A stretch of 41,420 nt of DNA from NCBI GenBank assembly GCA_021299385.1, contig JAJTGZ010000012.1, forward strand, positions 1 to 41,420, written 5' to 3'. Positions within the stretch are counted from its first letter, which is position 1. The number at the start of each line of letters is the position of its first letter. The DNA comes from Phycisphaeraceae bacterium (GTDB lineage: Bacteria; Planctomycetota; Phycisphaerae; Phycisphaerales; UBA1924). Positions 20,952 through 36,179 of the stretch are shown here, in pieces. The notes under the pieces are model-generated. The model was not told where the DNA came from and made no database searches. It worked only from the letters and a program-made list of their open reading frames with translations. Both the position numbers and the translations under genes were made by a program.

Positions 20952-22532
20952 TTAGCACCCGGCAAAGAACCGGTTCAAGAAGACAATGATGTCATCAGCC
21001 GTCAACTGCCCATCCGACCCCGGCGACTGCCCAGGCCCGGCCACGTCGCTCGGCCCGCAGGTGGGGCGGACGAACGAGAGCACTGCGGGGTTGCTCGTCG
21101 TGTCGCCGCAGGTGTTGGTTACAACGCAGGCGTACGACCCGAGGTCCTCGGCCTGCACGTCGCTCAGGAACAGCGCGGGGGTGCCTGCTGTCGGGTTGGT
21201 CGATGTGCTGATCAACGCCCCGTCCTTGGTCCACTGGTAGTTCAATACGCCGTTGCCACCGTTGGACGAGGCTGCCACCACGAACAACGCGGTACCCGAA
21301 GGCGTCGTGGCGAGGGCGACGGGTTGCCACCGGATGCTCGGCAATTGGATACCCGGGTTGTACCGAGCGATCCGATTTGCCAGCATGTCGCCTGCGGAGA
21401 GGAAGATACCACCCACCATCACGTCCCCACCCGGCAGGACCGCAAGAGCGCGGACGCTGTCGGTGGTCCCGAATCCGAGTGCTGACCAGGCGCCCGTACT
21501 CGGGTTGTAACGGGCAATGTGGTTTGCCGACCCGCCCCCGGCGTCGGTGAAGTCCCCACCCGCGATCACGTCCCCACCCGGCAGGACCACCAGCGCGAAG
21601 ACGGAGAAGTTGGTCCCCGTGCCGAGTGCTGACCAGACGCCCGTGCTCGGCTTGCAACGCGCAATGCTGTTCGCTGCAACGCCCCCGGCGGCGGTAAACC
21701 CACCCCCCACAACCACGTCCCCACCCGGCAGGACCGCAAGGGCCCTGACGGTGCTGTTGGTCCCCGATCCGAGCGCCGACCAGACGCCCGTGCTCGGGTT
21801 GTACCGGGCGATGTAGTTTGCCAATACGCCCCCAGCGACCGTGAAGTCACCACCCACGATCACGTCTCCGCCGGGCAGGACCGCAAGGGCCCTGACGGTG
21901 CTGTTGGTACCCGTCCCGAGTGGGAACCAGACGCCCGTGCTTGGGTTATAGCGGGCGATCCGGTTCGCCGACACGCCCCCAGCAGTGGTGAAACTCCCGG
22001 CAACAATCACGTCTCCACCCGGCAGGACTGCCAGGGCGGAGATGCTGTCGTTGGTCCCCGTGCCGAGCGCTGACCAGAAGCCCGTGCTCGGGTTGAAACG
22101 GGCGATATTGTTCGCCGGTATAAGCCCGGCGGTGTCAAAGAACCCCCCAGCGATCACGGTTCCACTCGGTAGCACCGCCAGGGCCGACACGCTGCCGTTG
22201 GTCCCCGTACTAAGCGTTGACCAGACGCCCGTGCTCGGATTGTAACGGGCGGTGCCAATCGACCCCGGCACACCCCCGGCGTTGCTGAATCTTCCGCCAA
22301 CGATTACATCCCCGCCAGGCATGACCCCAAGGGCGAAAACCGTGTTGTTGGTCCCCGGCGCACCCACCCCCGACACCCACGCCGCCGGGCACTGCGCACG
22401 CACCGCGCTTGGTGCGATAAGAGCACTGACCAAAGCAAGCACAAAAGCCAACCCCTCCACCCTGCCGCGAAGCAGCGCCAGCGTGCGGGAAACGAACCGG
22501 GTGGTGCAGAACATCGTCAAACATGCGTTCAT
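20952..22532 (-). CDS. exported seven-repeat propeller protein with GC-type dockerin tail
   Basis: This secreted or surface protein has 526 residues. A signal peptide covers about residues 1-46 (FVLALVSALIAPSAVRA). Seven 49-50-residue repeats follow (about 65-393), each of the form ALAVLPGGDVIVGG, an AGG-AN-IARYNPSTG segment and W-ALGTGTN. Seven such units fit a seven-bladed beta-propeller. An Ig-like domain comes next (about 400-490, NYQWTKDGA and GSYACVVTNTCG). The last 35 residues are a dockerin-like calcium-loop tail, SDVAGPGQSPGSDGQLTADD, ending FFAGC. The same tail ends the metalloprotease at 31054. ATG 22532 has AAGAAGGTGATT upstream, nearly a full anti-Shine-Dalgarno match at 9-nt spacing. 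Binding partner and function are unknown. Confidence 0.9.
   Translation of the reverse strand: MNACLTMFCTTRFVSRTLALLRGRVEGLAFVLALVSALIAPSAVRAQCPAAWVSGVGAPGTNNTVFALGVMPGGDVIVGGRFSNAGGVPGSIGTARYNPSTGVWSTLSTGTNGSVSALAVLPSGTVIAGGFFDTAGLIPANNIARFNPSTGFWSALGTGTNDSISALAVLPGGDVIVAGSFTTAGGVSANRIARYNPSTGVWFPLGTGTNSTVRALAVLPGGDVIVGGDFTVAGGVLANYIARYNPSTGVWSALGSGTNSTVRALAVLPGGDVVVGGGFTAAGGVAANSIARCKPSTGVWSALGTGTNFSVFALVVLPGGDVIAGGDFTDAGGGSANHIARYNPSTGAWSALGFGTTDSVRALAVLPGGDVMVGGIFLSAGDMLANRIARYNPGIQLPSIRWQPVALATTPSGTALFVVAASSNGGNGVLNYQWTKDGALISTSTNPTAGTPALFLSDVQAEDLGSYACVVTNTCGDTTSNPAVLSFVRPTCGPSDVAGPGQSPGSDGQLTADDIIVFLNRFFAGC
21354..22340 (-). repeat. seven in-frame ~147-bp repeats
   Basis: These are the DNA repeats behind the propeller blades. 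Units 2-6 are each 147 bp and remain visibly similar at the DNA level (for example, CCACCCGGCAGGACCGC recurs on the plus strand). That suggests recent duplication or gene conversion within the gene. Confidence 0.85.
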
Positions 22533-22596
22533 CTGGAATCACCTTCTTATATGTGCAGCAGGCTGAAAACCCCCGGCGGGGCAAGCCTGTGGGCAG

Positions 22597-22625
22597 AGTG
22601 TACTGCACAAACCCGGTGCGAGCAA
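22597..22625 (-). promoter_or_regulatory. candidate promoter of the propeller gene
   Basis: On the minus strand TTGCTC (22625-22620), a 17-nt spacer and TACACT (22602-22597) lie about 65 nt upstream of ATG 22532. The match is modest. The rest of this gap (22626-22835) shows no gene or clear structure. Confidence 0.3.
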
Positions 22626-22835
22626 ACAAAACTGCTAGAAACTTTCGGCCCGCACACGCACAACCCTCATTAAAACTTGTTAGTTAGATTGCTGTTGGGG
22701 TTGCGTGAAGCAGCACTTGGCAAGCTGCGGACCGATAACAGAGGCCTGCGCCGCCGGGGCTCAAGCCCTGACCCCTGGCGGGCGGGATGTTGTGTGGGGA
22801 GTGGTCGATGCTGCACATGCGACGGGGGGATCGTG

Positions 22836-24179
22836 CTATTTGATAATCTTAACCGTGCTCAGCCTGTCCACGAGCAGCTCGTAGACCACGGCGACGTCAT
22901 CGCTGGCCAGGCGGACGCAGCCCATGGAGCGTTGCTGGCCGATGCTGTCGGGGTCGACGGTGCCGTGGACGCCGTAGCCTACGAACTTGCGTGTGTTGTC
23001 GTCGCTGCCGTCGAGGCCGATCCAGCGTTCGCCGATGGGGTTTGCGGGGTTATCGGCCTCGAAGACCTCGCCGGTGCGTGGGTTGACCCAGCGTGGGTTG
23101 ACGAGTTTGGAGTTGGGTCGGACGACGAAGGTGCCTTCGGGCGTGCCGTTGCTTTCGCCGAGGCCGACGCGGAAGGAGCGGATGTAGACCCAGTCGCGCT
23201 CCTGCCCATCGGGGCCGAGGTCGGCGGTGCCGCTGCCACCTGCGGGCGGGCTGCCGGCGTAGAGGTCCATGCGGTAATCGTTCTTGTGCACCACGGCGTG
23301 GATCGGCAGGCGGACGATCTTGATTTTCTGCCCGACGCGCAGTGCGTTCTCACTGGGCAGGCGGTTGATCCGCTGCAGCAGCCGCCAGTCGATGGGCAGG
23401 CCCTGCTTGCGGGTGATGCGGACGAGTGAATCGCCACTGGCGACGGTGTAGGTATCGGTGATCGCGTCTCCCGCCGAGACCGTCGGCGAGAAGAAGAGCG
23501 TCTCGTTGATCGAGGCGATCTGGGCGCGGATCTGGGCTCGCTCGGCAGGGGTTGAGCGCGGGTCCATCAACCCGGCGTTGAGTTTGGTGCGGGCCAAGAC
23601 GAGCTGGTTCTGCTGCACCAGGCGTGCCGACTCATCGAGCAGACGCTTGGCCTGGCCTTGCCCTTGGGATACCAAATCACCCAGAACTGGCGGTGCGGCG
23701 ATGGTCCCCAGGTCGGGCGGGAGCGCCGCCGAGGCGGGAGAGGTGGTTTCTTTGGGCGCCAGCGTCGGGGCGGGCTGAGGTGCGCCCGGGTTGGCTTGCG
23801 CGGTGGCGGGCGATGGCTCAAGAATCTCCAGCGGGAGGCTGGCCACCTTTGGCGCACGCGGCGGTGTCATGCTCACAACCACCGGGGCCTGCTCGGCAAC
23901 AGGGTCAGGGCGCCCGGCGGGCTTGGCAGCCGCGACCGGCTGCTGTCCGGGCGGGGAGGCGGGGACCATCCCCTCGGGCAGATAGGCCTTGGGCGCGACG
24001 GCAAGGGCCTCCTGTGCCGGGCCCTGGCGGGCGCGGTTCCAGATGATGAACCCACCCCCGGCCAGGATGCAGATAACCGCAACAACGAGAACCACCCGCC
24101 CCCCGGCTGAGGAGAGAAGGCCGGCCCCGCCGGGGGTGTGAGGTGACTGTGAGATACGTGGTCGTTGCGAGTCGAGCAT
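22836..24179 (-). CDS. membrane-anchored LysM / L,D-transpeptidase (YkuD)
   Basis: This enzyme cross-links peptidoglycan stem peptides, or attaches proteins to them, in the periplasm. Residues about 28-48 (VVLVVAVICILAGGGFIIW) form one membrane anchor after a short cytoplasmic start. A Pro/Ala-rich linker leads to a LysM domain (about 240-285, YTVASGDSLVRITRKQGLP to LRVGQKIKIVRL), then the YkuD catalytic domain (about 293-447). The active-site motif is intact: VHGTVDPDSIGQQRSMGCVRL with Cys421. The protein has 447 residues from ATG 24179; AGGGG lies about 9 nt upstream. An upstream in-frame ATG at 24239 would add 20 residues before the anchor and is less likely. With alr and lysA in the same window it supports a peptidoglycan wall in this planctomycete. 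Confidence 0.93.
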   Translation of the reverse strand: MLDSQRPRISQSPHTPGGAGLLSSAGGRVVLVVAVICILAGGGFIIWNRARQGPAQEALAVAPKAYLPEGMVPASPPGQQPVAAAKPAGRPDPVAEQAPVVVSMTPPRAPKVASLPLEILEPSPATAQANPGAPQPAPTLAPKETTSPASAALPPDLGTIAAPPVLGDLVSQGQGQAKRLLDESARLVQQNQLVLARTKLNAGLMDPRSTPAERAQIRAQIASINETLFFSPTVSAGDAITDTYTVASGDSLVRITRKQGLPIDWRLLQRINRLPSENALRVGQKIKIVRLPIHAVVHKNDYRMDLYAGSPPAGGSGTADLGPDGQERDWVYIRSFRVGLGESNGTPEGTFVVRPNSKLVNPRWVNPRTGEVFEADNPANPIGERWIGLDGSDDNTRKFVGYGVHGTVDPDSIGQQRSMGCVRLASDDVAVVYELLVDRLSTVKIIK

Positions 24180-24318
24180 GTGCAAGGCCCCTGGCTTGGG
24201 AGGGTAGCAGAGAACGGGGCAGCCCATGGCCGCCATCAACGGGGCAGATCGGCAAAGCAGGCCTGATTTGGTGAGTTTTCACCCTGGCATGCCAGGGCAC
24301 GGCGCGGGGGAGTGGGCT

Positions 24319-24825
24319 TCAGGCCCGCTGGGCTTTGGTGATGACGACGTCGGCCTCGGGCCAGTCGCCCATCGGCCCGCCGGGCGTTCGGCGTGTGCCG
24401 GTGCGGACGCCCTTGATTTTGTCGACGACCTCCGTGCCGGCAATAACCTTCCCAAACACGGCGTACCCCGCCCCGCCCGTCTGCGGGTTGGGCGTCGAGA
24501 GAAACCCATTGTCCGCGACGTTGATAAAGAACTGTGCGGTTGCCGAGTCGGGGTTGCTCAGGCGTGCCATGGCGATGGTGTAGGGCTTGTTCTTGAGCCC
24601 GTTGTCCCACTCGTTCTTGATCTGCTTTCCGGTCGGTTTTTGCTGCCCGTCGGCGGTGAAGCCACCACCCTGGATCATGAAGGTGCCGATGACGCGGTGG
24701 AAGACGGTCTGGTCGTAGTGGCCTTTGTCGAGGTACGCCAGGAAGTTGGCGACGGTGATGGGGGCTTTGGCCTCATCGAGTTCGAGGGTGATGTCGCCGA
24801 GGGTTGTTTGGAGGAGGACCTTCAT
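24319..24825 (-). CDS. cyclophilin-type peptidyl-prolyl isomerase
   Basis: This enzyme speeds cis-trans isomerisation of prolyl bonds during protein folding. The 168-residue single domain has the bacterial cyclophilin blocks: TTLGDITLELDEAKAPITVANF, FHRVIGTFMIQGGGF with the catalytic Arg, IAMAR, TAQFFINVADNGFL, and YAVFGKVIAGTEVVDKI. There is no signal peptide, so it is cytoplasmic (PpiB-like). The start is 45 bp after the stop of the TPR-peptidase gene on the same strand. No ribosome site is seen, so translation may depend on the upstream gene. The link suggests co-expression but not a defined shared job. Confidence 0.95.
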   Translation of the reverse strand: MKVLLQTTLGDITLELDEAKAPITVANFLAYLDKGHYDQTVFHRVIGTFMIQGGGFTADGQQKPTGKQIKNEWDNGLKNKPYTIAMARLSNPDSATAQFFINVADNGFLSTPNPQTGGAGYAVFGKVIAGTEVVDKIKGVRTGTRRTPGGPMGDWPEADVVITKAQRA

Positions 24826-24870
24826 GGTTGGCTCGCGGGTGTGGGTGGTGGGTTTTGTCGGCGAGGATAT

Positions 24871-27489
24871 TCAGGGGGAGGTGGATTGTTTTTCCAGCCG
24901 GGTGAGGGCCTCGAGCCTGCGCTGGTGCTGGGCCTGGTTTGGCTCAAGCTCGGCCAGGAACTCGATGTGCCCCCGTGCGGCGGGCCAATCCTTGCGGCCA
25001 ACCGCAATCGCCGCGGCCAGCTCGCGGTTGGCCGGGTTATAAGGTGCGAGCCGCACCGCGCGCTGTGCGCTCGTCCATGCCCCGGCGGAGTCTCCCTGCT
25101 TGGCGAGGATCGCGGCGATCTGTGCGGCATAGGTCGCCTCCTTGTCCTGACGCACATCCAGCCAGCGCAAATGCTCGACGGCCTTGGGGGGATCGACTTG
25201 CAGATAGAACCCGGCCAGCAGTTTGTGCGGCATCGGATCGACTGGGCGCGAGGCGGCATAGGCCTCCAGTTCCGTTGCGAGTTCCGCATCGACCCGGCCG
25301 TCTTGCAACTCAAGTTTTTGGCGGAGGGCGACTTCTGCCGCGTCTATCTCAGCAGAGGCCATCCCCCACTGCTGCAGTTGCCCGTGCGCCCACGGCTTGA
25401 AGGCCTGCATGAACCCCTCGCGCCCGGTGCCGAGCACGGCGGTGAAGGCTTCCTCCTCGCGCACGCCCTTGGCGAACTGGTCCATCAGGCGCAGGGGCGC
25501 CTCGGCGCCGAAACGCTCGACCATGAACTGGTACATCCAGTGCCCCTGCGCATACGCCAAGGCCCGGTCCTGCGGACGCTTGGGACGCGTGAAGGCGATG
25601 TTGATCTCGTTGAGATCAAAGAGGTCGTCGGTGTTGAGCGTCTGGGCCAGCAGTTGCACGGTGTTGTAGTCGCGCGGGGCCTGTTCTAAGAACACGGCCT
25701 GGGCCTCGGTGAACCAGTGCGGCAGGCGGTTGCCCGTCCGGCTCAGGCCCACGGTGTGCACATACTCATGGCGAAGGACACGCGCCCAGTCATAGGCGCC
25801 CGAGTGCCCGCGCCCATCCCGCGGCGACTCCATCGCGATCACCGGGCCCGTGCTCGCGGCGATGGTGTGAATCCGTGGCACACCGGCGATACGCACCGCG
25901 AAACTGGCGTGGTCGGGGGCCAGGTCGATGACGGTCTTGAACGGGGGCTGGTAACGCAGCGCGCCGGGCGCATCGCCGGTTATGTCGGCGTGGATGCCCT
26001 CCAGGATCGGGAGCATCTCGGCGGCCAGGCGCGCATCCAGCCCGGGCCTTGACCGGATGACAAAGTGCGCACCCTCTGTGCGCTGGTAGGTGCTCAGCAC
26101 GTTGAGCAGCTTGAGCGTGTTGCCCGCGCGCACGTTAAACGGGTCGAGTTCCACGGCCTTGGTCAGCGCTCGCAAGGCCAGCTCATCACGCCCGCTCTGC
26201 ATGCCGAGCAGGCCCAGGTCTGTTGCAGGCGCGGCCCAGAGGGGGGCAAGTGCCCAGGCGTGTTCGAGCAACCGCTCGGCCTGGGCGTACTGGCGCAGGT
26301 CCGCGAGCGTCTGCCCGGCCTGCAACGCGGCGCGTGGCTGGCCGGGGAAGCGACGCTCGTAGTCGGCGATGTGCGCATCGAGTGCCGGGAAGTCATACTC
26401 GGCGGCGATGACGCCAGCGGTGATATCCAGCAGCAGCGGCGCATCGGGCCACGCCTGCACATGCGGCACAAGCAACGCCCGCGCCTGTGCCGGGTCATCT
26501 TGCCGAAGCAAAGCGGCGGCGCGCACCACCGCACCATGCGCTGACCGCGCCGGCGCGCTGGCAACAGCAACCTCATCGGCAGACTCCAGCCCCGCGATCG
26601 TGTCCAGGCGCGAGGCGATCTCCTGCGCAGCATCAAAGTCGAACGAGAGCACCGCCATGCGCCCGGCCAGCAGATACGCCTGGGCGGATGTCGGGTTCAG
26701 GCCCGCCGCCTCGCTCACGGCCTCGCGCGCCTGGGCGAAGTTGTCCTTGTCCATGAGCAGTTGCGCCTCGGCCAGGGGGACCCTGTAATCCAAGGGGTCC
26801 AGCACCCGGGCTTGGGCGAGTTGTTGCATCAGGAAGGTGAAGTCTGCGCCCCCTTCACCCTTGGGGCCGGTCAGGCGGATCAGCGCCGCCGAGCCTTGCA
26901 CGGCCGAGACGATCTCCCCGCTGGTTGCCAGCTTCCCATCGATGAGTTGCCGGGCGAGCAACTCGGCAACCTGTGCCGCCCGCTCGCGCTGCCCGAGCAT
27001 CTCGAGCGCGCTGACAGCGAGCGCCAGCGCACGCGGCGAATCATCCTTACCGATCAACGCAATCGCATCGACTGGCTGCCCGAGTTGCACCAGCGCCTCG
27101 GCACGATCAAGTGGGTTTGCCCGCTCGTCGCGCAGGGATGCGTCGGCATAGAGGCCACGCAAAAGCGCGATCTGGGCACGGGAGGGCGTCAGGGCCAGGT
27201 CTTTGCCCATCGGCACGCCGTGCTTGATGCGCAGGGCTCGGGCCTCCTGCGGGGTGTTGAACGGCGCATCGATCACGGCCCGCGCCGCGGGGGAAAGCAT
27301 CCCAGCGATCGTGCCGGGGGAGTCGGGCTGGTCCTGAGCTTGTGGCGGGGCCACCACCGGCGGCGTGGGCGGCACCTGCCGGGCCGGCTCTTGGCCCTGG
27401 GCCGGCAAACTCCACCCACCAAGCAGCCCCAGCGCCAGCGCTCCGCCGAGGGTCTTGTGCAACCATCCCCGTCGCGTGCGCTGTGCCAT
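24871..27489 (-). CDS. exported TPR protein with gluzincin-type peptidase domain
   Basis: This is an 872-residue exported protein. A signal peptide covers about residues 1-32 (LGGALALGLLGGWSLPAQG). Much of the N-terminal ~450 residues and the C-terminal ~150 residues are helical TPR-like repeats, such as AEALVQLGQPVDAIALIG and AQAYLLAGRMAVL. Between them lies a peptidase-MA-like domain with the zinc motif HEYVH (His574, Glu575, His578) followed by LPHWFTEAQAVFLEQ, which supplies the third ligand Glu. Periplasmic proteolysis is therefore plausible; the substrate is unknown. ATG 27489 has GATACT 5 nt upstream on the minus strand, a weaker form of the leaderless pattern. The gene diverges from dut and precedes the cyclophilin gene. 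Confidence 0.85.
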   Translation of the reverse strand: MAQRTRRGWLHKTLGGALALGLLGGWSLPAQGQEPARQVPPTPPVVAPPQAQDQPDSPGTIAGMLSPAARAVIDAPFNTPQEARALRIKHGVPMGKDLALTPSRAQIALLRGLYADASLRDERANPLDRAEALVQLGQPVDAIALIGKDDSPRALALAVSALEMLGQRERAAQVAELLARQLIDGKLATSGEIVSAVQGSAALIRLTGPKGEGGADFTFLMQQLAQARVLDPLDYRVPLAEAQLLMDKDNFAQAREAVSEAAGLNPTSAQAYLLAGRMAVLSFDFDAAQEIASRLDTIAGLESADEVAVASAPARSAHGAVVRAAALLRQDDPAQARALLVPHVQAWPDAPLLLDITAGVIAAEYDFPALDAHIADYERRFPGQPRAALQAGQTLADLRQYAQAERLLEHAWALAPLWAAPATDLGLLGMQSGRDELALRALTKAVELDPFNVRAGNTLKLLNVLSTYQRTEGAHFVIRSRPGLDARLAAEMLPILEGIHADITGDAPGALRYQPPFKTVIDLAPDHASFAVRIAGVPRIHTIAASTGPVIAMESPRDGRGHSGAYDWARVLRHEYVHTVGLSRTGNRLPHWFTEAQAVFLEQAPRDYNTVQLLAQTLNTDDLFDLNEINIAFTRPKRPQDRALAYAQGHWMYQFMVERFGAEAPLRLMDQFAKGVREEEAFTAVLGTGREGFMQAFKPWAHGQLQQWGMASAEIDAAEVALRQKLELQDGRVDAELATELEAYAASRPVDPMPHKLLAGFYLQVDPPKAVEHLRWLDVRQDKEATYAAQIAAILAKQGDSAGAWTSAQRAVRLAPYNPANRELAAAIAVGRKDWPAARGHIEFLAELEPNQAQHQRRLEALTRLEKQSTSP

Positions 27490-27568
27490 GGACAAGTATC
27501 GGCACGATCCCGGTGCAGTTCGCGGCAAAGTGCGCAATCGCCCATGACCCTGCCGATCCCCGAGGGCT

Positions 27569-27574
27569 TACCCT
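27569..27574 (+). promoter_or_regulatory. -10 hexamer for leaderless dut
   Basis: TACCCT ends 5 nt (CGGCC) before ATG 27580, the same hexamer and spacing as the M20 gene at 29812. It lies inside the longer reading of dut and so argues for the shorter protein. Confidence 0.5.
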
Positions 27575-27579
27575 CGGCC

Positions 27580-28044
27580 ATGGAACACAGGCCTGGGCAG
27601 ACCATTGACGTGCGCATCAAACTCCTGAGTCCTCGGGCGACCCTCCCGGCCTATCAGAGCGCCGGTGCAGCGGGGATGGACTTGGCCGCCTGCCTGCCCG
27701 AGGGTGCGCCTGTGGTTATCCCCCAAGGGGGGATCGTGCGGGTGCCGCTGGGCTTTGCCGTGAGCTTCCCGGCGGGGTATGAACTGCAAATCCGCCCGCG
27801 CTCAGGCCTGGCCAGCAAGCACGGCATCACCATCCCCAACGCCCCCGGCACCGTCGATTCCGACTACCGCGGCGAGATGATCGTCGCACTGATCAACCTC
27901 GGGCAGCAACCCTTCACCATCGAGCACGGCATGCGCATCGCCCAGATGGTCCTGGCCCCCGTCTGCCGGGCGAGGCTGGAAATAGCCGAAAACCTTGACG
28001 AAACCGCCCGCGGCACAGGGGGATTTGGGAGCACGGGCAGGTAA
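27580..28044 (+). CDS. dut: dUTP diphosphatase
   Basis: Dut hydrolyses dUTP to dUMP and pyrophosphate, keeping uracil out of DNA and supplying thymidylate synthesis. All five motifs are present in order: SAGAAGMDLAA (I), RPRSGLASKHGI (II), TVDSDYRGEMIVALINLG (III), RIAQMVLAP (IV) and the glycine-rich RGTGGFGSTG (V) near the C-terminus. Length from ATG 27580 is 154 residues, typical of the trimeric enzyme. An ATG at 27544 would add 12 residues; the shorter start is preferred because a -10-like hexamer lies 5 nt before it. rimO starts 25 bp after the stop codon, with its own -10-like hexamer in the gap. Confidence 0.96.
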   Translation: MEHRPGQTIDVRIKLLSPRATLPAYQSAGAAGMDLAACLPEGAPVVIPQGGIVRVPLGFAVSFPAGYELQIRPRSGLASKHGITIPNAPGTVDSDYRGEMIVALINLGQQPFTIEHGMRIAQMVLAPVCRARLEIAENLDETARGTGGFGSTGR

Positions 28045-28058
28045 TCCCCGCCCACACC

Positions 28059-28064
28059 TACACT
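28059..28064 (+). promoter_or_regulatory. -10 hexamer for leaderless rimO
   Basis: TACACT ends 5 nt (TGCCC) before ATG 28070 in the short gap after dut. It suggests rimO has its own transcript start despite the close spacing. Confidence 0.45.
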
Positions 28065-28069
28065 TGCCC

Positions 28070-29722
28070 ATGCCCCGCCCCAAAGCACCCACACCCCCCG
28101 CCAGCACCGGCGACGGGATCGATACCGTCGCCTTTGTCTCCTTGGGGTGCCCCAAAAACCTTGTCGACAGCGAAAAAATGCTCGGGCTGCTGGCGCAGGA
28201 CGGCATGACCCCCGTTCAGTACGACCTGACCGAGCAGGGTGAGCAGGTCGATGCGATTGTCGTCAACACCTGCGGGTTCTTGGAGGCGAGCAAGGATGAA
28301 TCACTCCAAGTCATCCACGATGCGATCGAGAAGAAGAGCGCCGGGCAGATCAAGCGGGTGGTCGTGGCCGGGTGTTTGGTGCAACGGCACCGGGCCAAGA
28401 TGCTTGAGTGGGCGCCGGGGATAGACGCGATGGTCGGGGTCTTTGACCGCGACAAGATCGTCCAGGCCGTGCGCGGGCTGACGCCACACGCACGCCAGCA
28501 GCGCCACACCAAGGCGACCGACGCCGCCGAGCAGCCCAAGTATTGGATCAACGCCAACGCCCTCACCGCCGCGGCCGAGCGCGGCGTGCAGACCGTTGGC
28601 CTGACCGTGCAAGGCCAAGACGGCAAAGGGATCGGCTACTTCGAGGACGACTCGGCACGCCTGCGCCTGACCCCACGCCACTACGGCTACCTCCGCATCA
28701 GCGAAGGGTGCAACCAGCGGTGCACCTTCTGCACCATCCCCAGCATCCGCGGCAAGATGCGCTCCAAACCCATCGACCGCATCCTGCTCGAAGCCAAAGA
28801 ACTCATCGCCGACGGGTGCTTTGAGATCAACCTCATCGGCCAGGACACCACCAGTTATGGCCAGGACATCGGCATCGGCATGGACGAGCAGGGCCTCGGC
28901 GGGATGCCCACCATGCTCCGCACCGTCAGCAAGGCCTTCGACGAGCTTGGCGTCGCCGACGGTTGGGTGCGGCTGATGTACGCCTACCCGAGCAACTTCA
29001 CACCGCCGATGATGCGAGCCATCGCCGCTACGCCTCGCGTGCTGCGGTATATCGACATGCCCCTGCAGCACGCCAGCGACAAGATGCTCGCGTCGATGCG
29101 GCGGAACATCACCATCGCGCAGACGCGCACGCTGCTGGACCAGCTCCGCACGCTCGTGCCGGGGATTGCCCTGCGCACCACCTTCATCAGCGGCTTCCCG
29201 GGCGAGAGCGAGGATGACCACAAGCAACTGCTGGACTTCGTCGCCGAGCAGGCCTTTGAGAACCTGGGCGTCTTTGAGTATTCGATGGAGCCGGGCACCG
29301 TCGCGGGGACGATGGAGCAGGACAAGGCCCTGGCCGTGCCGGCGGAGGTCAAGGCCCGCCGGCGCAACGAGGTGATGCAACTGCAGCAGCAGATCGCGTT
29401 CCAACGCCAGGAGGCCCGCGCGGCGAAGTTCGACGAGAAGAACCCCATCGGCACGGGCCTGCGGCACGACGTGCTCATCGACGCACCCCTGCGCACCCAC
29501 GGCCGGGCAACCACCGGCGTCGGGGCAGGGGGCGGGCTGTACTCTGGCCGAACGTACGCCCAGGCCCCGCAGATCGACAGCGTTACCTTCGTGCAGAGCA
29601 AAAAACCACTCGCTCCTGGCGAGGTTGTCCGCTGCGTTATTGTCGCTGCCGACGGGTATGACTTGGTTGCCAAGCCGGCGGAGGAACTGGATAAGCGTGT
29701 GAGTCTGAAGGTGATGAGGTAA
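28070..29722 (+). CDS. rimO: ribosomal protein S12 methylthiotransferase RimO
   Basis: RimO is a radical-SAM enzyme that adds a methylthio group to an Asp of ribosomal protein S12. The N-terminal methylthiotransferase domain has its three cluster cysteines in SLGCPKN, VNTCGFLEASKDES and VAGCLVQR. The radical-SAM domain has CNQRCTFCTIP, and a C-terminal TRAM-like domain ends in VIVAADGYDLVAKP. At 550 residues it is about 100 longer than usual. Extra sequence lies between the first two domains (about residues 145-200), and a Gly-rich insertion sits in the TRAM region. SLGCPKN and the CGFLEASKDES block favour RimO over MiaB. ATG 28070 is chosen over 27995, which overlaps dut. A TACACT hexamer lies 5 nt upstream. 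Confidence 0.94.
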   Translation: MPRPKAPTPPASTGDGIDTVAFVSLGCPKNLVDSEKMLGLLAQDGMTPVQYDLTEQGEQVDAIVVNTCGFLEASKDESLQVIHDAIEKKSAGQIKRVVVAGCLVQRHRAKMLEWAPGIDAMVGVFDRDKIVQAVRGLTPHARQQRHTKATDAAEQPKYWINANALTAAAERGVQTVGLTVQGQDGKGIGYFEDDSARLRLTPRHYGYLRISEGCNQRCTFCTIPSIRGKMRSKPIDRILLEAKELIADGCFEINLIGQDTTSYGQDIGIGMDEQGLGGMPTMLRTVSKAFDELGVADGWVRLMYAYPSNFTPPMMRAIAATPRVLRYIDMPLQHASDKMLASMRRNITIAQTRTLLDQLRTLVPGIALRTTFISGFPGESEDDHKQLLDFVAEQAFENLGVFEYSMEPGTVAGTMEQDKALAVPAEVKARRRNEVMQLQQQIAFQRQEARAAKFDEKNPIGTGLRHDVLIDAPLRTHGRATTGVGAGGGLYSGRTYAQAPQIDSVTFVQSKKPLAPGEVVRCVIVAADGYDLVAKPAEELDKRVSLKVMR

Positions 29723-29763
29723 GCCAAGCAAGCACAGTGGCGCAGGCTCGCCAACCGCGCCTG

Positions 29764-29798
29764 TTGCCTATTGCCCACTCCCGATTGCCGATTTTCCC
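29764..29798. repeat. 7-bp tandem repeat before the M20 gene
   Basis: Five consecutive 7-mers run TTGCCTA, TTGCCCA, CTCCCGA, TTGCCGA, TTTTCCC. They lie between rimO and the M20 peptidase and end just before that gene's -10-like hexamer. The unit differs from the GCGACGA-type heptads. Confidence 0.7.
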
Positions 29799-29800
29799 GA

Positions 29801-29806
29801 TACCCT
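29801..29806 (+). promoter_or_regulatory. -10 hexamer for leaderless M20 gene
   Basis: TACCCT ends 5 nt (CCCTT) before ATG 29812 and follows directly on the 7-bp repeat array. The array therefore occupies the place of the -35 region. Confidence 0.45.
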
Positions 29807-29811
29807 CCCTT

Positions 29812-31005
29812 ATGCCCCCCTCCCTCGCCGCGCTTATTGCTCGCGCCCTGCCCGAGGTTGTCGCCCTCCGCCAGGACCTGCACGCGCACCCTGAGATCGC
29901 CTATCAAGAGCACCGCACAAGCAAACTCATTACACGGGAGCTCGCCGCGCTGGGCATCGCCCACGCCCCCGGCCTGGCCGGGGGCACCGGCGTTGTCGCC
30001 CACCTGCCCGCAAGCACCGACGCGGGCAACGCCCTCCCCGCCGTCGGGCTTCGTGCGGATATCGACGCGCTACCGATCGTCGAGCAGACCGGCCTGCCTT
30101 ACGCCAGCACCACGCCGGGCCAGATGCACGCCTGCGGGCACGACGGGCACACCGCAATCCTGCTGGGCGTTGCGCGCGTGCTCAAAGACCTGCCGCGCCC
30201 GCGCCCTGTTACGCTCGTCTTTCAGCCCGCCGAGGAGGGCGGCGGCGGGGGCGAACGCCTCTGCAACGAGGGGCTCCTCGACGGGGCGATCATCGGCCCA
30301 CGCATAGAAAAGATGTTCGGCCTGCACGGGTGGCCTGAACTGCCCGTCGGAACCGTCGGCAGCCGGGCCGGTGCGCTGCTGGCGAGCACCGACGAGCTCC
30401 GCGCGACCATCGTGGGCGTCGGCGCGCACGCCGCCTACCCGCACCACGGGCGCGACCCGATCCTGGCCATGAGCCAGTGCATCGTCGCGTTGCAGACACT
30501 TGTCAGCCGGGGTGTTTCGCCGACCGATTCGGTCGTGCTCTCGGTCTGCATCGTCAAGGGTGGCTCGGCATCGAACGTCATACCCGACTCGGCCACGTTC
30601 ACCGCCACGCTCCGCTGCCTTGAAGCGAGCAGCAGGAAGTTTGCCCACCAACGCGCCAGCGAGATCATCCAGGCGACTGCCAGCGCCGGCGGGTGTACCG
30701 CCGAGCTGAACTGGGAGGAGGGGTACCCGGTAACCTACAACGACCCGGCCCTGACGGCCCGCTTCTTCACCCTTGCCGACGCCTGGCTCGGCCCCGCCAA
30801 CGTTGTGCGCGTCCCCCACCCTTCGATGGGTGGTGAAGACTTTTCTTATTACGCCCAGCGCGTCCCGAGCGTCTTCTTCTGCTTGGGCCTCAAGTGCGCT
30901 GGCCAGGCGCGCACGCCGATGCTGCACCAGCCCGACTTCGACTTCAACGACCAGGCGATCCCGCTGGGCATTGAAATCTTCTGCCGGCTGGCGACCGAGG
31001 CGTAA
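29812..31005 (+). CDS. M20-family amidohydrolase/peptidase
   Basis: This is a zinc-dependent amidohydrolase of the M20 group that includes N-acyl-amino-acid amidohydrolases and hippurate hydrolases. It has LRQDLHAHPEIAYQE at the start, GLRADIDALPI, the metal motif HACGHDGHT (residues 106-114), FQPAEEGGGGGERL with the catalytic Glu, FGLHGWPELPVG, and MGGEDFSYY near the end. The dimerisation insertion lies about residues 185-300. The 397-residue length is normal and there is no signal peptide. The acyl group and amino acid cleaved cannot be deduced. ATG 29812 is used because the homologous region begins there. Convergent with the metalloprotease gene, with 48 bp between stops. Confidence 0.92.
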   Translation: MPPSLAALIARALPEVVALRQDLHAHPEIAYQEHRTSKLITRELAALGIAHAPGLAGGTGVVAHLPASTDAGNALPAVGLRADIDALPIVEQTGLPYASTTPGQMHACGHDGHTAILLGVARVLKDLPRPRPVTLVFQPAEEGGGGGERLCNEGLLDGAIIGPRIEKMFGLHGWPELPVGTVGSRAGALLASTDELRATIVGVGAHAAYPHHGRDPILAMSQCIVALQTLVSRGVSPTDSVVLSVCIVKGGSASNVIPDSATFTATLRCLEASSRKFAHQRASEIIQATASAGGCTAELNWEEGYPVTYNDPALTARFFTLADAWLGPANVVRVPHPSMGGEDFSYYAQRVPSVFFCLGLKCAGQARTPMLHQPDFDFNDQAIPLGIEIFCRLATEA

Positions 31006-31053
31006 GGACACACACCCTCAAACCGAATACCGAAGGCCCAACCCCTTGCTTTA

Positions 31054-32916
31054 CTAGCACCCCGCAAAGAACCTGTTGAGGAAGACGATGATGTCATCGG
31101 CCGTGAACTGGCCATCCGCCGTGGTGCTCTGGCCCGGCCCGGCCACGTCCGCCCGTGTGTCGCTGGCAAAGAACCAGTTGAGGAAGACGATGATGTCGTC
31201 AGCCGTAAGCGTGTTGTCGGGGCCGACCGACTGCCCGGGCCCGGCAACATCGCTCAGACCGCACGCTGGACGCGCCGCGGCAACAAGCGGCCCGCCGATG
31301 ACCGTGTTGGGACGACCCGCCTGGTTGGTCTCCACCCAATACGTCGCCGCAGCAGGCGTGCTGGCAGTGTCGGTCAGCGAGGTCCCTGTTTGCGTCGAGA
31401 TCAGCGTCGCCGACGCACGGTCGCCCGTCGCTGAGCGGTAGACGCGGTACCCGGTGTTCCCGGTAACCGCACCCCAGGTGAGCACCACAGGGCCGGCGGT
31501 GTTGCTGGACGAAAAGGCAATCGCCGAGCTTGCCTGCAAGCGCACGGTGTAGAGCTGTGTGTCGGCCAGGGAGGCCGCCGAGCGAACGCGGAACATACCA
31601 CCCCCGGCTGGGAAGAGCACGTTGGCAACAAGCTCCTCGACCCCGATAGCCGCGGTGTTCTGCACGCCATAACTCACCGAGCCGTCCACGTTGTAGACCT
31701 CCACAAGCAGATCTCCAATATTGCTTGCATTGACCGACGTGCCGCTCGGGTTGGTCGTGCAATCCCCGGTCAAATAGGTCGTTCCGACAGGCGTCGCGGC
31801 GATAGAGACCACCAGCGGCACCGTTGTGGTGAACTTGAAATAGTCCTCGTCGGTGAAGATGAGCGAATACCGCGAGGCCGATGACGCCGTCGAAACGGTG
31901 CCGAAGGTCTGCGTCGATCCGGGCGTGACGTCACCGAGCAGCGTCGCCGTCGCGGGCGTTCCGTTGGGCTCGGCAGCGTCGCCGTAGTTCTCCTGAACCG
32001 CCCGGATATCGTCCTGCTGCGGCCCGTCGAAGACGGCGGAGTAGCTCGGCTCCAGCAACATCCGGTTGCCCGAGCCCGACTGGTTCACCGGACAGGTGTG
32101 CGCGATCCCCTGCCCATGCCCCAACTCGTGCATGACGATGTTGCGCAGGAAACGGTACGTGTTGGCGCTCTGACCCCAGTTCTCCTCGAAATCCAGCACC
32201 ATGTCCCCGTTGTTGGGGTAACTGTTAAAGGCTAAGACGTTGCCGACCACATCGATCGGGCGCATCCCGATGCGGATATCACCCCTGCTGGTGGTGTTGC
32301 CACCCGTGCCCCACACGGCCCCGTCGTCCCACGGGTTGGCGCCCGATTGCACACGCACAAACGTGATCCCTGACAGCTCCGACCACCGGTCAAAGGCCGC
32401 CTGGAACTGGGCCAACCAGAGCGACCGGTTCCCACCAAACTGCGCGTCCAACCGCTCAAAGAGCCGGCTGCGCTGCGGGTCAAGCGAGCCGTCCGTCGGT
32501 GGTGGCAGCGTCGGCGAGACGCGGATCCCGTCGGGCACCAACGACCACGTAACCGTGATCGGCGTGCCGATCGGGATCCCGCTCCCGTTCGTCGCCGTGG
32601 TCGTCCACCGCCCGTTGGTCGCGCTGAGTTGATACTTGGGCAGCCCGGCACGCATCAACGCATCGACCTGTGCCAAAATCTCAGGGTTGATCGGGGCGCT
32701 GCTGTCAAAGCAGGCAACGTTCGGCTCCCCGGGCACCCACAGGTGCGCCGGGCCGTTGATCGCCTTGGCATACGTCTGCGCATCCACGCCCTCCACGCCG
32801 ACGGCATGCTGCAAGGGCACCCCCGCCTGCTGCGCCACAGGCGCACACCCGGCAACGAGCACCACGCCCGCAACACACAACGCAAGCCCGCAACGCTGCC
32901 CAACGCAACCGATCAT
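31054..32916 (-). CDS. lipoprotein metzincin (matrixin-like) with double GC-type dockerin tail
   Basis: This is a probable extracellular zinc protease of 620 residues. A lipoprotein signal (LCVAGVVLVAGC, Cys about 23) opens it. The catalytic domain has the full metzincin motif HELGHGQGIAH (His263, His267, His273), with NRMLLEP downstream as a likely Met-turn. Upstream text such as AAFDRWSELSGITFVRV is typical of matrixins. A beta-sandwich linker and a fibronectin-III-like domain (about 470-545, VVLTWGAVTGNTGYRVYR) follow. The last 69 residues are two dockerin-like calcium loops: DVAGPGQSVGPDNTLTADD, then DVAGPGQSTTADGQFTADD, ending FFAGC. ATG 32916 is chosen for its ribosome site (GGAAAGGGA) and its lipobox. 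A lipobox together with a dockerin tail is unusual. A CATAAT hexamer (33018-33013, minus strand) is a possible -10. Confidence 0.9.
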   Translation of the reverse strand: MIGCVGQRCGLALCVAGVVLVAGCAPVAQQAGVPLQHAVGVEGVDAQTYAKAINGPAHLWVPGEPNVACFDSSAPINPEILAQVDALMRAGLPKYQLSATNGRWTTTATNGSGIPIGTPITVTWSLVPDGIRVSPTLPPPTDGSLDPQRSRLFERLDAQFGGNRSLWLAQFQAAFDRWSELSGITFVRVQSGANPWDDGAVWGTGGNTTSRGDIRIGMRPIDVVGNVLAFNSYPNNGDMVLDFEENWGQSANTYRFLRNIVMHELGHGQGIAHTCPVNQSGSGNRMLLEPSYSAVFDGPQQDDIRAVQENYGDAAEPNGTPATATLLGDVTPGSTQTFGTVSTASSASRYSLIFTDEDYFKFTTTVPLVVSIAATPVGTTYLTGDCTTNPSGTSVNASNIGDLLVEVYNVDGSVSYGVQNTAAIGVEELVANVLFPAGGGMFRVRSAASLADTQLYTVRLQASSAIAFSSSNTAGPVVLTWGAVTGNTGYRVYRSATGDRASATLISTQTGTSLTDTASTPAAATYWVETNQAGRPNTVIGGPLVAAARPACGLSDVAGPGQSVGPDNTLTADDIIVFLNWFFASDTRADVAGPGQSTTADGQFTADDIIVFLNRFFAGC

Positions 32917-33175
32917 GCCTGTCCCTTTCCGCCCCGCGAACAACAGCCAGAGTGGGTAAAACGACCAAACCGGGCACGAGAATACCGCCCAGTTAACTTT
33001 GCCATACTCACGATTATGCCACGCGGTTGCACGGCTTGCCAGCAATCGACCCGCTCACCCGCAAGTTCGGCCTGTGATCGGACCCTCCACCCCACCCAAC
33101 GCCCGAAAACGCGGTAAAAGCCCGATCAATCTATCCACCTGAGCACCAGGCGCCCGGCAACCAACGGTCCCTGGC

Positions 33176-36097
33176 TTACTGCGAGGCGTAGATGTAGTTG
33201 GCGTCCAAGGCCTTGCCGATCCGCACGCTGCACTCGGTCAGGTGGGCCTTGGTATACACATCGATCCCGCCGGTGCCGATCCCGCGGTCAATCTTCCCCT
33301 TGATCTCACGCAGTTTCAGCACCGTCAGGTTCTGCACCGGGCGGTACGCGGCGGTGTAGCTCCCGTCGGGGAGCGTTAGGTCGATCAGCCGGGCCAGGTA
33401 CTCACGCTGCAGGTTCCGCCTGATGCTGCTGATGCTCGGCTTGCGCACCGTCCCGTCCCCGAGCGCATCAAGCTCGGTCCAGATCGAGGCCGAGACGACG
33501 TCGAGCAGCTCGGGCACCGTCAACGCATCGGTATCGGGGGCCTTGCGCAGCTCGTTGTCGTAGACCCTCTGCATCGTCATCGGGTTGAGCAGCATCGTCA
33601 GCACGGCTGTCTGCACGCCCAATATCCGGTCGTGCACCGGGTAGCTCGGGCTTTGGAAGATCGAGCCCATCCCGCCGGCATCGAACCACTTTTCGACAAT
33701 CATCTTTTCGAGCAGCTCGCGCGAGAGCCCGAATGCCTCCTCGTTGAAGGCGTTATCGACCACGAACTTGATCGCACGCCGTTGCGTTGCCGCGTCCACG
33801 GGTGTAACCGGCGCGGGGGCGTTGGGGTCCCCCTTCTTGAAGCGGTTGACGTCCGCGCCGCCGATGTGCATGCTGGCGATCCGCACCGCCGAGATATGCC
33901 GCCCGAGCAGCAGCTCATACGCACGCCGGCTTTTGGCCCAGCTGTCCCCGTCCTTCATCACCTTGTCGAGGATCTTCCCACGCAGGTGCTGCGTCAGCCG
34001 CATCGTGCTGTCGGCGTAGTCCAATGGGTCCTTACCAAGGTCAAACTGCGCGACCCGCGGGTCCGGACCGCCCACATCCTCATCGGTGCCAAACGCCAAC
34101 GCCGGCTCGGCCGCCCGCGCCAGCACGGGCTTGAGGTTCGGCTCCAGCGTGTACCCATACTCGACCGCCCACATGTCGTACGCGCCGATGCCGATGGGTG
34201 CATAGTCCCCCTGCACTTTCCCATCATTGAAGTTGATGTTGATGGGGGTGTAGTCCATGACGCTGGCAACGATCGGCAGCTTGCCCTTGACCTCCGGGCT
34301 GTTCATCTCCTGGATCGTCAGTGCCGTGCTCGCCTTGAAGTTGTGCCGAAGGCCCAGCGTGTGCCCGACCTCGTGGCTGATCACGTCCCGCAGCAGCGGC
34401 CCGACGAAGCTCTCCGGCAGCCCGTCAAGCAACTGCTCCTTCTTCTTCTCGTCCTTCTTCCCGTCTTTCTTGGCGTCCTTCTTCTCGTCGGCCGAGTCCG
34501 TGCCTGCGTCCTGCGCCAGTTCGAGGATGTCCGCCGCGCTCAGCCGCAAAAGGGCCATGTCCATCGACTTGCCGAGCATCGCCGCGCAGCTCATCCGCTG
34601 CCGCATCGGCAGCGCGTACCCCGTCGGGTCCAAACTCACGGCACCGAACTGCAGCGGCGCGCCCGAACGAAGGCTCAGCATCGGCAGCGCATCGTTCATC
34701 CCCGCACGCTGGCGCACATCCTCCGCATACGCCTTCTCGGCCTGCTCACGCATGAGCGTCCGCTGGCGGATGATCCCGTCCCGGTCGCTCGGCTCGGCCA
34801 GGCGCACACGCGGGTCCCACTGCGGGTTCTTGTCCAGCCAGCCCACCACCTCCGCCGGGTACCCCATCATCGCCACCTCGGGCAGCAGCTGCTGGTAACT
34901 GCGGTACCACCCGCGCAAAAACCCGTCGTCCATCACAACATCGGCATCAAGAATCTGCCCCGTCTCAGGGTGTACGCGCGATGGCCCGATGGCAAAGCCA
35001 AGGTCGCTGGTCGACCAGCGGATGAAGTTGTAGCGCACGTCCTCGGGGTCTTTTTCCATGTGCGACCCGGACGCCGCGTCCTGCTGATAGACCTCGATGG
35101 CGTCAACGATCCCGATCTTCTCGAACGCCTCGTTCCACGCCAGCACGCCGTCGCGCACCCACCGGCGGTACTGCACGGGCACCGTCTCCTCGATATAAAA
35201 CACAATCGGCTGCTTGGGCGGGCTGAGCTGCAACTTCGGGTCGCGCTTCTGGATGTGCCAGCGGTTGATGTACCGCACCCACTGCGTGTCCTTGTCTTGG
35301 CGCGAGGTATCGCGGAAGCCCGTCGTAAAATACCCCACACGCTGGTCGGCCTCACGCGGCACATACCCCGTGCCGGCCGGGATCAGCGAGATCGAGTAGT
35401 GGATCGTTACCAGCCGGCCGTCGCGGTTGGGCAACTCATAAGCGATCTCGACGTTCTGCGGGAAGGCCTTGGCCTTGGCCAGGCGCGCCAGCTCCCGGTT
35501 CGCCCCGGCCACCTGGCCGCCAAAGAGCTTGTCGGCACGCCCGACCAGCAGCGCCGTCGCGTCGATCACAGGCCCACCGCCCGGACCGATCGCCACGATC
35601 GGCACATCGACGATCACACGGTCGGTGTACAACTTCTCCTCGCTCCGCTTGTTCTCGGCATCCCCGGTGCTCTTGGTGTCGGTGTTCACCTCCAGCAGCG
35701 CCAAACGCTTGTCAAACCTCTTCCAGTAGCCGTAGACATCCCCGACCTGAATCCCCGTATTCGGCACGCCCCCCGCGAATGTCGTCCCGATAAAGATCCG
35801 CTGACGATCAAAGTCCCTGGGCAACTCGGCCAGCAGCCTGGCGTCCTTGTCGCGCTTGTAAAGCGTGTACATCGTCGGCGCATCGGGTGAACCGACCCGC
35901 TCGGTCCCCTTGCTGGCGTCCTTAAACTCGGGGAACTCCGGCGGCTCCTTCGCCGGCGATGCCGACGGAACCGCCGCGGCCGGGGGCACCGGGGCACCAT
36001 CTTGCCCCAACGCTGGCCCGATCATCCACGCCGAGAGCACCAGCACACTCGTCAGTTGCACAAGGGTCAAACGCATCAAGCCGGCGCGCAGGGTCAT
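33176..36097 (-). CDS. large exported zinc metalloprotease (DUF5117/DUF4953 type)
   Basis: This exported protein has 973 residues. A signal peptide covers about residues 1-33 (LVQLTSVLVLSAWMIGPALG). It has the organisation of the large bacterial proteases described by the DUF5117 and DUF4953 domains: a beta-rich N-terminal half (YTLYKRDKDARLLAELP), then a metzincin catalytic domain with HEVGHTLGLRH (His575, His579, His585) and the Met-turn VASVMDYTP. A Lys/Asp-rich insertion (ADEKKDAKKDGKKDEKKK) lies just before the zinc motif. The C-terminal ~300 residues are helical. ATG 36097 has GGAG 6 nt upstream; ATGs at 36127 and 36145 are in frame but lack a ribosome site. It lies upstream of the other metzincin on the same strand, 259 bp apart. 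Substrates are unknown. Confidence 0.88.
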   Translation of the reverse strand: MTLRAGLMRLTLVQLTSVLVLSAWMIGPALGQDGAPVPPAAAVPSASPAKEPPEFPEFKDASKGTERVGSPDAPTMYTLYKRDKDARLLAELPRDFDRQRIFIGTTFAGGVPNTGIQVGDVYGYWKRFDKRLALLEVNTDTKSTGDAENKRSEEKLYTDRVIVDVPIVAIGPGGGPVIDATALLVGRADKLFGGQVAGANRELARLAKAKAFPQNVEIAYELPNRDGRLVTIHYSISLIPAGTGYVPREADQRVGYFTTGFRDTSRQDKDTQWVRYINRWHIQKRDPKLQLSPPKQPIVFYIEETVPVQYRRWVRDGVLAWNEAFEKIGIVDAIEVYQQDAASGSHMEKDPEDVRYNFIRWSTSDLGFAIGPSRVHPETGQILDADVVMDDGFLRGWYRSYQQLLPEVAMMGYPAEVVGWLDKNPQWDPRVRLAEPSDRDGIIRQRTLMREQAEKAYAEDVRQRAGMNDALPMLSLRSGAPLQFGAVSLDPTGYALPMRQRMSCAAMLGKSMDMALLRLSAADILELAQDAGTDSADEKKDAKKDGKKDEKKKEQLLDGLPESFVGPLLRDVISHEVGHTLGLRHNFKASTALTIQEMNSPEVKGKLPIVASVMDYTPININFNDGKVQGDYAPIGIGAYDMWAVEYGYTLEPNLKPVLARAAEPALAFGTDEDVGGPDPRVAQFDLGKDPLDYADSTMRLTQHLRGKILDKVMKDGDSWAKSRRAYELLLGRHISAVRIASMHIGGADVNRFKKGDPNAPAPVTPVDAATQRRAIKFVVDNAFNEEAFGLSRELLEKMIVEKWFDAGGMGSIFQSPSYPVHDRILGVQTAVLTMLLNPMTMQRVYDNELRKAPDTDALTVPELLDVVSASIWTELDALGDGTVRKPSISSIRRNLQREYLARLIDLTLPDGSYTAAYRPVQNLTVLKLREIKGKIDRGIGTGGIDVYTKAHLTECSVRIGKALDANYIYASQ

Positions 36098-36179
36098 CGG
36101 TTGCTCCGAAAAAAGTGTTCTCCGCATAGTGCAATCGGCAAGCACACGCCGGCGCGTGCAGATTTACAGCGATCGAATA

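Follow-up and report, generated by a model that had tools for sequence, protein, structure and literature searches.

Type I dockerins contain 12-residue F-hand loops, with ligands at positions 1, 3, 5, 7, 9, and 12. In the available part of a structural report, the ends of the R. flavefaciens ScaA dockerin are joined by a clasp between Trp-651 and Pro-727 (PMC5934362), and the available part of a genome study gives 223 dockerin open reading frames (ORFs) for R. flavefaciens FD-1 (PMC5301203). Closer to the present organism, cohesin and dockerin proteins were described in the Nemodlikiaceae, a family of the Phycisphaerae, in the portion of that paper available to us (PMC6461901). NCBIfam holds a further family, NF041540 "dockerin_GC", and no paper on NF041540 or on a "GC-type dockerin" was found in the literature searched. 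Here, we describe the GC-type tails of two unrelated proteins, a beta-propeller protein and an M10 metzincin, encoded in the window, i.e., the whole 41,420-nucleotide stretch of contig JAJTGZ010000012.1 that was analysed (Phycisphaeraceae bacterium, assembly GCA_021299385.1), and compare them with tails of the source genome and its relatives. The conserved terminal cysteine (Cys) of the module most likely locks it shut with a second Cys, rather than marking a site for cutting or anchoring.

The propeller and metzincin ORFs end in ...CGPSDVAGPGQSPGSDGQLTADDIIVFLNRFFAGC and ...CGLSDVAGPGQSVGPDNTLTADDIIVFLNWFFASDTRADVAGPGQSTTADGQFTADDIIVFLNRFFAGC. As an earlier note made from the sequence had stated, the final 17 residues are nearly the same (16 identical, with L or F at the first) and the DNA is alike, with 44/51 positions equal and 5 synonymous codon differences over the final 17 codons, and 75/96 positions equal and 9 synonymous differences over 32 codons. 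This likeness is not due to chance. The propeller has one repeat of NF041540 and the metzincin two, in agreement with the note's description of a GC-type dockerin tail that is doubled in one of two unrelated proteins, and the module also opens with a conserved Cys. In the following, D1 is the first aspartate (Asp) of the first loop, and D12 or D12′ is the last loop Asp, of a one-repeat or a two-repeat module, respectively.

20952..22532, (-) strand: Delta-60/Kelch-type beta-propeller with an immunoglobulin (Ig)-like domain and a one-repeat GC-type dockerin end, 526 residues (ORF call, Pfam, NCBIfam)
20955..21059, (-) strand: one-repeat (half) GC-type dockerin, Cys492 (D1-4) to terminal Cys526 (D12+12) (sequence, NF041540)
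21057..21059, (-) strand: N-side Cys codon of the propeller domain (sequence)
31054..32916, (-) strand: lipoprotein M10 (matrixin-like) metzincin, 620 residues from ATG 32916 (Peptidase_M10)
32845..32859, (-) strand: lipobox LVAGC, residues 20-24 (read by eye)
31981..32412, (-) strand: M10 catalytic domain, residues 169-312 (Peptidase_M10, 46.6 bits)
32098-32130, (-) strand: zinc motif HELGHGQGIAH within the M10 catalytic domain (sequence)
31057..31263, (-) strand: two-repeat GC-type dockerin, Cys552 to Cys620 (NF041540, 68.7 bits, residues 554-620)
31261..31263, (-) strand: N-side Cys codon of the metzincin, D1-4 (sequence)
31150..31251, (-) strand: repeat 1, a 19-residue loop (D556 to D574) and helix (sequence)
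31057..31149, (-) strand: repeat 2, a 19-residue loop (D590 to D608), helix, and terminal Gly-Cys (sequence)
31057..31059, (-) strand: terminal Cys codon of the metzincin, D12′+12 (sequence)

The tail is a real, already named module. In the protein scan, NF041540 matched the metzincin with about 68.6 bits, against a cut-off of 29, and the propeller, being a half module, with 27.0 bits, slightly below the cut-off (residues 495-526, a match that leaves out roughly half of the model). In a six-frame search, both sites were above the cut-off, but the propeller match (32.3 bits, model positions 1-39) crosses the stop codon of its gene. The propeller protein has a signal-like N-terminus, matches DUF5122/Rax2/Kelch and Ig_2 in Pfam, and reaches 39.7 bits with TIGR02608, below that family's cut-off of 76.5. 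The metzincin is best read from ATG 32916 to 31054, a start that lies 43 codons inside the longest ORF and that brings the lipobox with it; by reading, no lipobox was seen in the first 60 residues of the propeller. The tether of the metzincin at both ends, by lipobox and tail, that the earlier note proposed holds for this protein given that start but looks exceptional, since a crude scan called a lipobox in 2/271 dockerin-tailed proteins with a readable N-terminus and found no signal in 28 (the metzincin itself lies outside the 271, its own locus copy being cut).

The earlier note had also counted one calcium loop in the propeller and two in the metzincin; the repeat numbers agree, whereas the loops are not of the classical calcium type and span 19 residues from first to last Asp, not 12. 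The first loop has 19-20 residues in 38/39 domains of the source genome, the remaining one being misregistered, and follows the pattern D-V-A-G-P-G-Q-S-x-x-P-D-G-x-F-T-A-D-D. Elsewhere, loops of 12 residues were found in the relatives G172, G002, and G270, loops mostly of 24 in G441, and both kinds together in G498 and G572. The module resembles the type I dockerin of cellulosomes (PF00404) in its two loop-helix repeats, in having Asp at both the first and the final position of the loop, and in its C-terminal place on many different proteins, but differs in its loops of 19-24 residues (also in several other genera), in the Cys pair at its ends, and in that no cohesin was found with it. PF00404 matches three places in the source genome, and neither window protein at E-values up to 1. 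In one source-genome protein (L001, G000:C79, 890-1348), two overlapping PF00404 matches (45.7 and 26.3 bits) directly precede a GC-type dockerin, which apparently gives this protein additional dockerin repeats. A profile of the window type gave no match among solved structures; a relative with 12-residue loops matched cellulosomal dockerins of solved structure (E 8e-6 to 1e-3), and a second such query ranked other EF-hand proteins first. The AlphaFold model of the metzincin tail (mean predicted local distance difference test score 94.4) consists of two long helices, at residues 27-38 and 61-73 of 75. The fold alignment (A2) holds 73 relatives out of 98 candidate tails, selected for both Cys and similar length, and its invariant Cys are thus there by construction.

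The states of the two Cys were tabulated for 342 distinct C-terminal modules with two repeats, taken from 32 genomes, 17 of which contribute fewer than 5 domains. Both Cys were present in 288 modules, only the N-side Cys in 12, only the C-side Cys in 17, and neither in 25. The 313 concordant modules exceed the mean of 285 and the maximum of 301 obtained by shuffling within genomes, a level that none of 20,000 shuffles reached (Cochran-Mantel-Haenszel chi-square 55). Among 238 pairings of N-side and C-side residues with enough variance, Cys-Cys was the strongest (z 7.4), followed by Cys-Gly (4.9), against a background with a median |z| of 0.73 and a 95th percentile of 2.08. Modules with neither Cys are spread over 20/188 protein clusters, indicating that the double absence is not a single event, and the 174 single-state clusters gave the same association (both 149, N-side only 7, C-side only 5, neither 13; p 4e-11). 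The 342 modules were drawn from 428 candidate ORFs after the removal of 86, namely 36 duplicates, 21 that had one repeat or were incomplete, 18 that were not C-terminal, 10 lacking a first loop Asp, and 1 lacking context; selection of the loci relied on NF041540 or on peptides of the window type, which may leave Cys-less modules under-sampled. At least 2 of the 29 discordant domains (L026, L191) are in the wrong register and would count as concordant in the right one, a correction not applied to these counts. An earlier table of fewer loci (269 domains) gave the same picture.

The spacing of the two Cys is set by the loops. The C-side Cys lies at D12′+12 in 268/305 tails, and the nearest N-side Cys at D1-3 or D1-4 in 280/300. 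The Cys is the final residue in only 156/305 tails, with 1-4 residues beyond it in the other 149; it is final in 33/35 of the source-genome tails that have it and in 0/12 of those in G426. The "fixed terminal" Cys of the earlier note is thus fixed in position, but not in being terminal. In one source-genome protein (L043, G000:C71), the N-side Cys is missing, the inter-repeat linker contains a Cys, and the C-side Cys is shifted to D12′+14, as though the pairing partner had moved. Fixed spacing from the loop and coupled loss are what would be expected of two touching residues, unlike a signal read from the very end, and the pair may form a disulfide-type clasp. The Cys positions are near those of the end-to-end clasp of the ScaA dockerin, whose offsets, worked out from the Asp-653 and Asp-712 numbering in the available part of the report, are D1-2 and D12′+15 (PMC5934362). 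As far as that part goes, the ScaA dockerin likewise has its ends tied together and an insertion in a calcium loop, but its clasp is a Trp-Pro stack rather than Cys-Cys, its 12-residue insert occurs in one loop only, and its cohesin partner is known (PMC5934362). In 45/209 proteins with both Cys, no other Cys occurs in the mature chain, delimited crudely by home-made signal-peptide rules that also served the lipobox scan; in these, the two Cys can pair only with each other or with a partner protein.

The helices of the tails were found to follow the genome rather than the protein. In the 15 genomes with at least 5 domains, each relative being represented by a sample rather than by its whole genome, helix identity over 11 positions is 0.72 within and 0.32 between genomes. 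The helix types include ADDIIVFLNRF in the source genome, IFDFLAFQNAF in G002, FFDVLAFLDAF in G384, NGDFTAFFAAF in G325, and AADFFFYLDLF in G441. Close relatives have similar dialects (0.70-0.75 among the source genome, Prado162, and PN19; 0.80 between G002 and G172), and in G498 the 12- and 24-residue loops bear the same ADDFF helices, with an identity of 0.70 between the two kinds and 0.71 genome-wide. For 142 homologous pairs across dialects (103 proteins, so that the pairs are not independent; median body identity 40%), tail helix identity was 0.295, compared with a background of 0.299 (Wilcoxon p 0.03), whereas unrelated tails within one genome reached 0.737; in 136/142 pairs, the tail of the first protein resembled those of other proteins in its genome more than that of its homologue. 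The metzincin homologues in G426, G498, and G278 each bear the tail of their own genome. These results point to one receptor per genome. Homologues in the source genome (L036, without a Pfam match), PN19 (L144), and G325 (L195) all keep a Cys-less GC-type module, despite the different helix dialect of G325.

The motif-bearing proteins were collected genome-wide, a check that the earlier note had suggested. NF041540 gave 49 six-frame matches at E-values up to 1 in the source genome, 45 of them above the cut-off, and the module is C-terminal rather than internal, ending within 14 residues of the C-terminus in 374/384 ORFs of the fetched loci (copies from overlapping loci included). It matched all 34 source-genome proteins scanned with Pfam and NCBIfam, a set picked by NF041540 itself that includes the window pair and several proteins cut at a locus edge; the set comprises Ig domains, propellers, an esterase, peptidyl-arginine-deiminase-like, sugar dehydrogenase-like and pyrroloquinoline quinone dehydrogenase-like proteins, and the M10 protease. 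In a sample of the phylum, 37/392 genomes have the module at E 0.001 or better (23 above the cut-off). Of the 37, 10 belong to the same family, 8 to other families of its order, and 10 to other orders of its class, and 9, with one weak match each, lie beyond the class. Within the family it was found in 81/81 genomes and 74/74 genera (78/81 genomes above the cut-off). Candidates at first look numbered 4 to 222 per genome, compared with the 223 dockerin ORFs given for R. flavefaciens FD-1 (PMC5301203), and up to 64 were scored in each genome; some genomes have few matches (for example, 1 in G595 and 2 in G533). The nearest relatives among the named genomes are Phycisphaerales bacterium PN19_bin_20 and Prado162.

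The best explanation is probably a clasped C-terminal docking module of the dockerin kind that gathers exported proteins on one extracellular receptor. Two helices, each following a loop of the calcium type, would form the binding face, and the ends of the module would be held by the Cys pair, 3-4 residues before the first loop and 12 after the last loop Asp, the latter nearly always being the final residue in the source genome. The module would bring dozens of otherwise unrelated exported proteins to a single receptor outside the membrane, presumably at the cell surface; that receptor would differ between genera and, in the source genome, would not be a recognisable cohesin. Calcium binding by the loops is likewise predicted.

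Several results weigh against this explanation. Foldseek searches of the Protein Data Bank with the tail model returned nothing at E 0.001 or better, and VIA-align gave only weak likeness to dockerins (Z 2.9 over 52 residues to 4fl4_G, from C. thermocellum, and Z 2.3 to 5k39_B); it covered just 9 chains from Foldseek, so that absence from its list is uninformative. The N-side Cys shows weaker associations with helix positions as well (+7, z 4.2; +8, z 2.7; +4, z 2.3), and the neither-Cys state is partly inherited, for example in one protein shared by G000, PN19, and G325, so that the number of events is below 25. No receptor for the tails was found. VKOR, Thioredoxin_4, and DSBA had no match in any of 8 family genomes (G000, G541, G002, G172, G384, G441, G498, and G325), control genomes being positive; the usual catalysts of exported disulfides were therefore not found. 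Nor, outside the module, did the proteins with both Cys favour an even number of Cys (85/164). The eight genomes export many Cys-containing proteins.

The last two negatives leave room for catalyst-free extracellular oxidation, for a metal site, or for a link between modules. A reading of the Cys pair as a metal site, or as a covalent bond that joins two dockerins or ties a dockerin to the receptor, would account for the missing catalysts and for the one-repeat tails, which keep both Cys although the inferred geometry of a single loop and helix would not let them meet. We nevertheless consider it unlikely, as the spacing agrees with the end-to-end clasp known from a dockerin with two repeats, so far as the available part of its description shows (PMC5934362), and two thiols per module are too few for a usual zinc site unless the module dimerizes. 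An ordinary cohesin-dockerin system, with a cohesin that is too diverged or encoded in an unassembled part of the genome, is a serious rival, albeit an improbable one. Such a system was proposed as the "planctosome" of the Nemodlikiaceae, which, in the available part of the paper, shares with the present case the class Phycisphaerae, dockerin-bearing peptidases, and a proposed non-cellulosomal role (PMC6461901). The cohesin family PF00963 occurs in 16/201 genomes of the order (13 above the cut-off), and a cohesin profile matched 5/81 family genomes at E 0.01 or better; most cohesin chains examined also carry dockerin-like repeats and recall the planctosome adaptor, as far as it is described in that part (PMC6461901). 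Signal-bearing proteins of this sort, with a cohesin-like domain and dockerin-like repeats (L223, L225, L080-L084, and L086), occur in a minority of the order's genomes. The planctosome, however, rests on cohesin-bearing anchor and adaptor proteins, according to the available text (PMC6461901), and as far as the searches reach, the source genome has none. The cohesin-like partner that the earlier note proposed to look for was not found there by PF00963 (no match at E-values up to 1), by a profile built from seven cohesins of planctomycetes (A3), or by an enlarged profile (A5), in an assembly that is 95% complete and may thus miss a cohesin gene; the source genome is not among the five cohesin-positive family genomes, whereas the module is present in all 81, and in 12 module-rich genomes the better of these two profiles gave just two matches (E 0.56 and 0.58).

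That the likeness of tails within a genome arose from DNA copying alone, with no receptor selecting their sequence, is quite unlikely. Copying of tail DNA does contribute, because codon identity at identical residues exceeds the expectation from codon usage in 9/9 genomes (0.714 vs 0.557 in the source genome, 0.75 vs 0.60 in PN19). Much synonymous variation is nevertheless scrambled while the residues stay, and the window pair has 5 synonymous differences in the last 17 codons; in G498, the codon excess is small (0.662 vs 0.634), tail residue identity is still 77% (0.77, vs 0.83 in the source genome), and the loops vary while the helices stay alike. It is simpler to assume selection for a shared partner, itself hypothetical. 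Least probable is the earlier note's suggestion that the Gly-Cys end serves as a signal for sorting, processing, or covalent attachment, which a membrane enzyme would read. The frequency of a final Cys in the source genome would suit it, as would an exosortase-like protein encoded at G000:C39:10296-11018 (L222), which scores 102 bits, just below the cut-off of 105.55. The suggestion was rejected on the coupling of the two Cys, which are lost together, and on a spacing counted from the loop and not from the end, with residues following the Cys in nearly half of the tails and in every one from G426. Sortase-type C-terminal signals (PEP-CTERM, GlyGly-CTERM) consist of a motif, a transmembrane helix, and a basic cluster; by reading, the tail has instead a two-helix module with acidic loops, without a transmembrane segment or a basic end.

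Seven one-repeat tails were accepted, from the source genome (the window copy, L042, and L045), PN19 (L251), G002 (L181), G172 (L171), and G572 (L257), and all seven, from five genomes, retain both Cys; two are doubtful, because L045 belongs to a gene that is divided between two reading frames and the frame of L251 is just 87 residues long. Of 16 one-repeat candidates from one search, 10 were excluded for contig-edge or shifted frames or as degenerate two-repeat modules; of those excluded, L213 lacks both Cys, and L142 has a final Trp at the place of the Cys. Judging from EF-hand geometry, a single loop and helix would be unable to join its own ends. Covalent dimers would then be expected for one-repeat tails, and the prediction that such tails form covalent pairs is the boldest and least tested part of the proposal. 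Loci L042 (G000:C88:52200-58500) and L045 (G000:C67:7500-9000) contain several copies of the propeller whose tails are damaged or shortened, one with a partial deletion between the two repeats and others split over frames.

The metzincin lies among other peptidases, with four peptidase-like genes in about 11 kb of the window around it. Its neighbours of this kind are:

33176-36145: DUF4953/DUF5117 metzincin
24871-27537: Peptidase_MA with TPR repeats
29737-31005: M20 peptidase

The name of NF041540 stresses the GC end. What is added here is that this "GC" is one half of a coupled Cys pair, that the helix dialects, like the loop lengths, are genus-specific and common to unrelated proteins, and that the module is universal in the sampled family, in which cohesins are rare; neither the clasp nor the dialects were found described in print, within the literature searched. 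In its widest form, which is conceivable but rather doubtful, the proposal is that the family displays dozens of exported proteins per genome, perhaps up to some 200 by the first-look candidates, on one receptor of a new kind, with tags and receptor co-evolving into genus dialects and the tail of each protein changing with its host genome, the tag being a cysteine-clasped dockerin and the one-repeat forms being covalent pairs of half-dockerins. Dockerins have been known mainly as one half of a cohesin pair, and here a dockerin-type module is present in 81/81 genomes of a family in which the cohesin profile matches 5/81. With the coupling of the Cys, a family name that had no explanation leads to a structural prediction that can be tested, and two tails from different genera, with unlike helices, could serve directly as baits for the receptor. 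How these Phycisphaerales hold their surface proteins has thereby become a concrete question.

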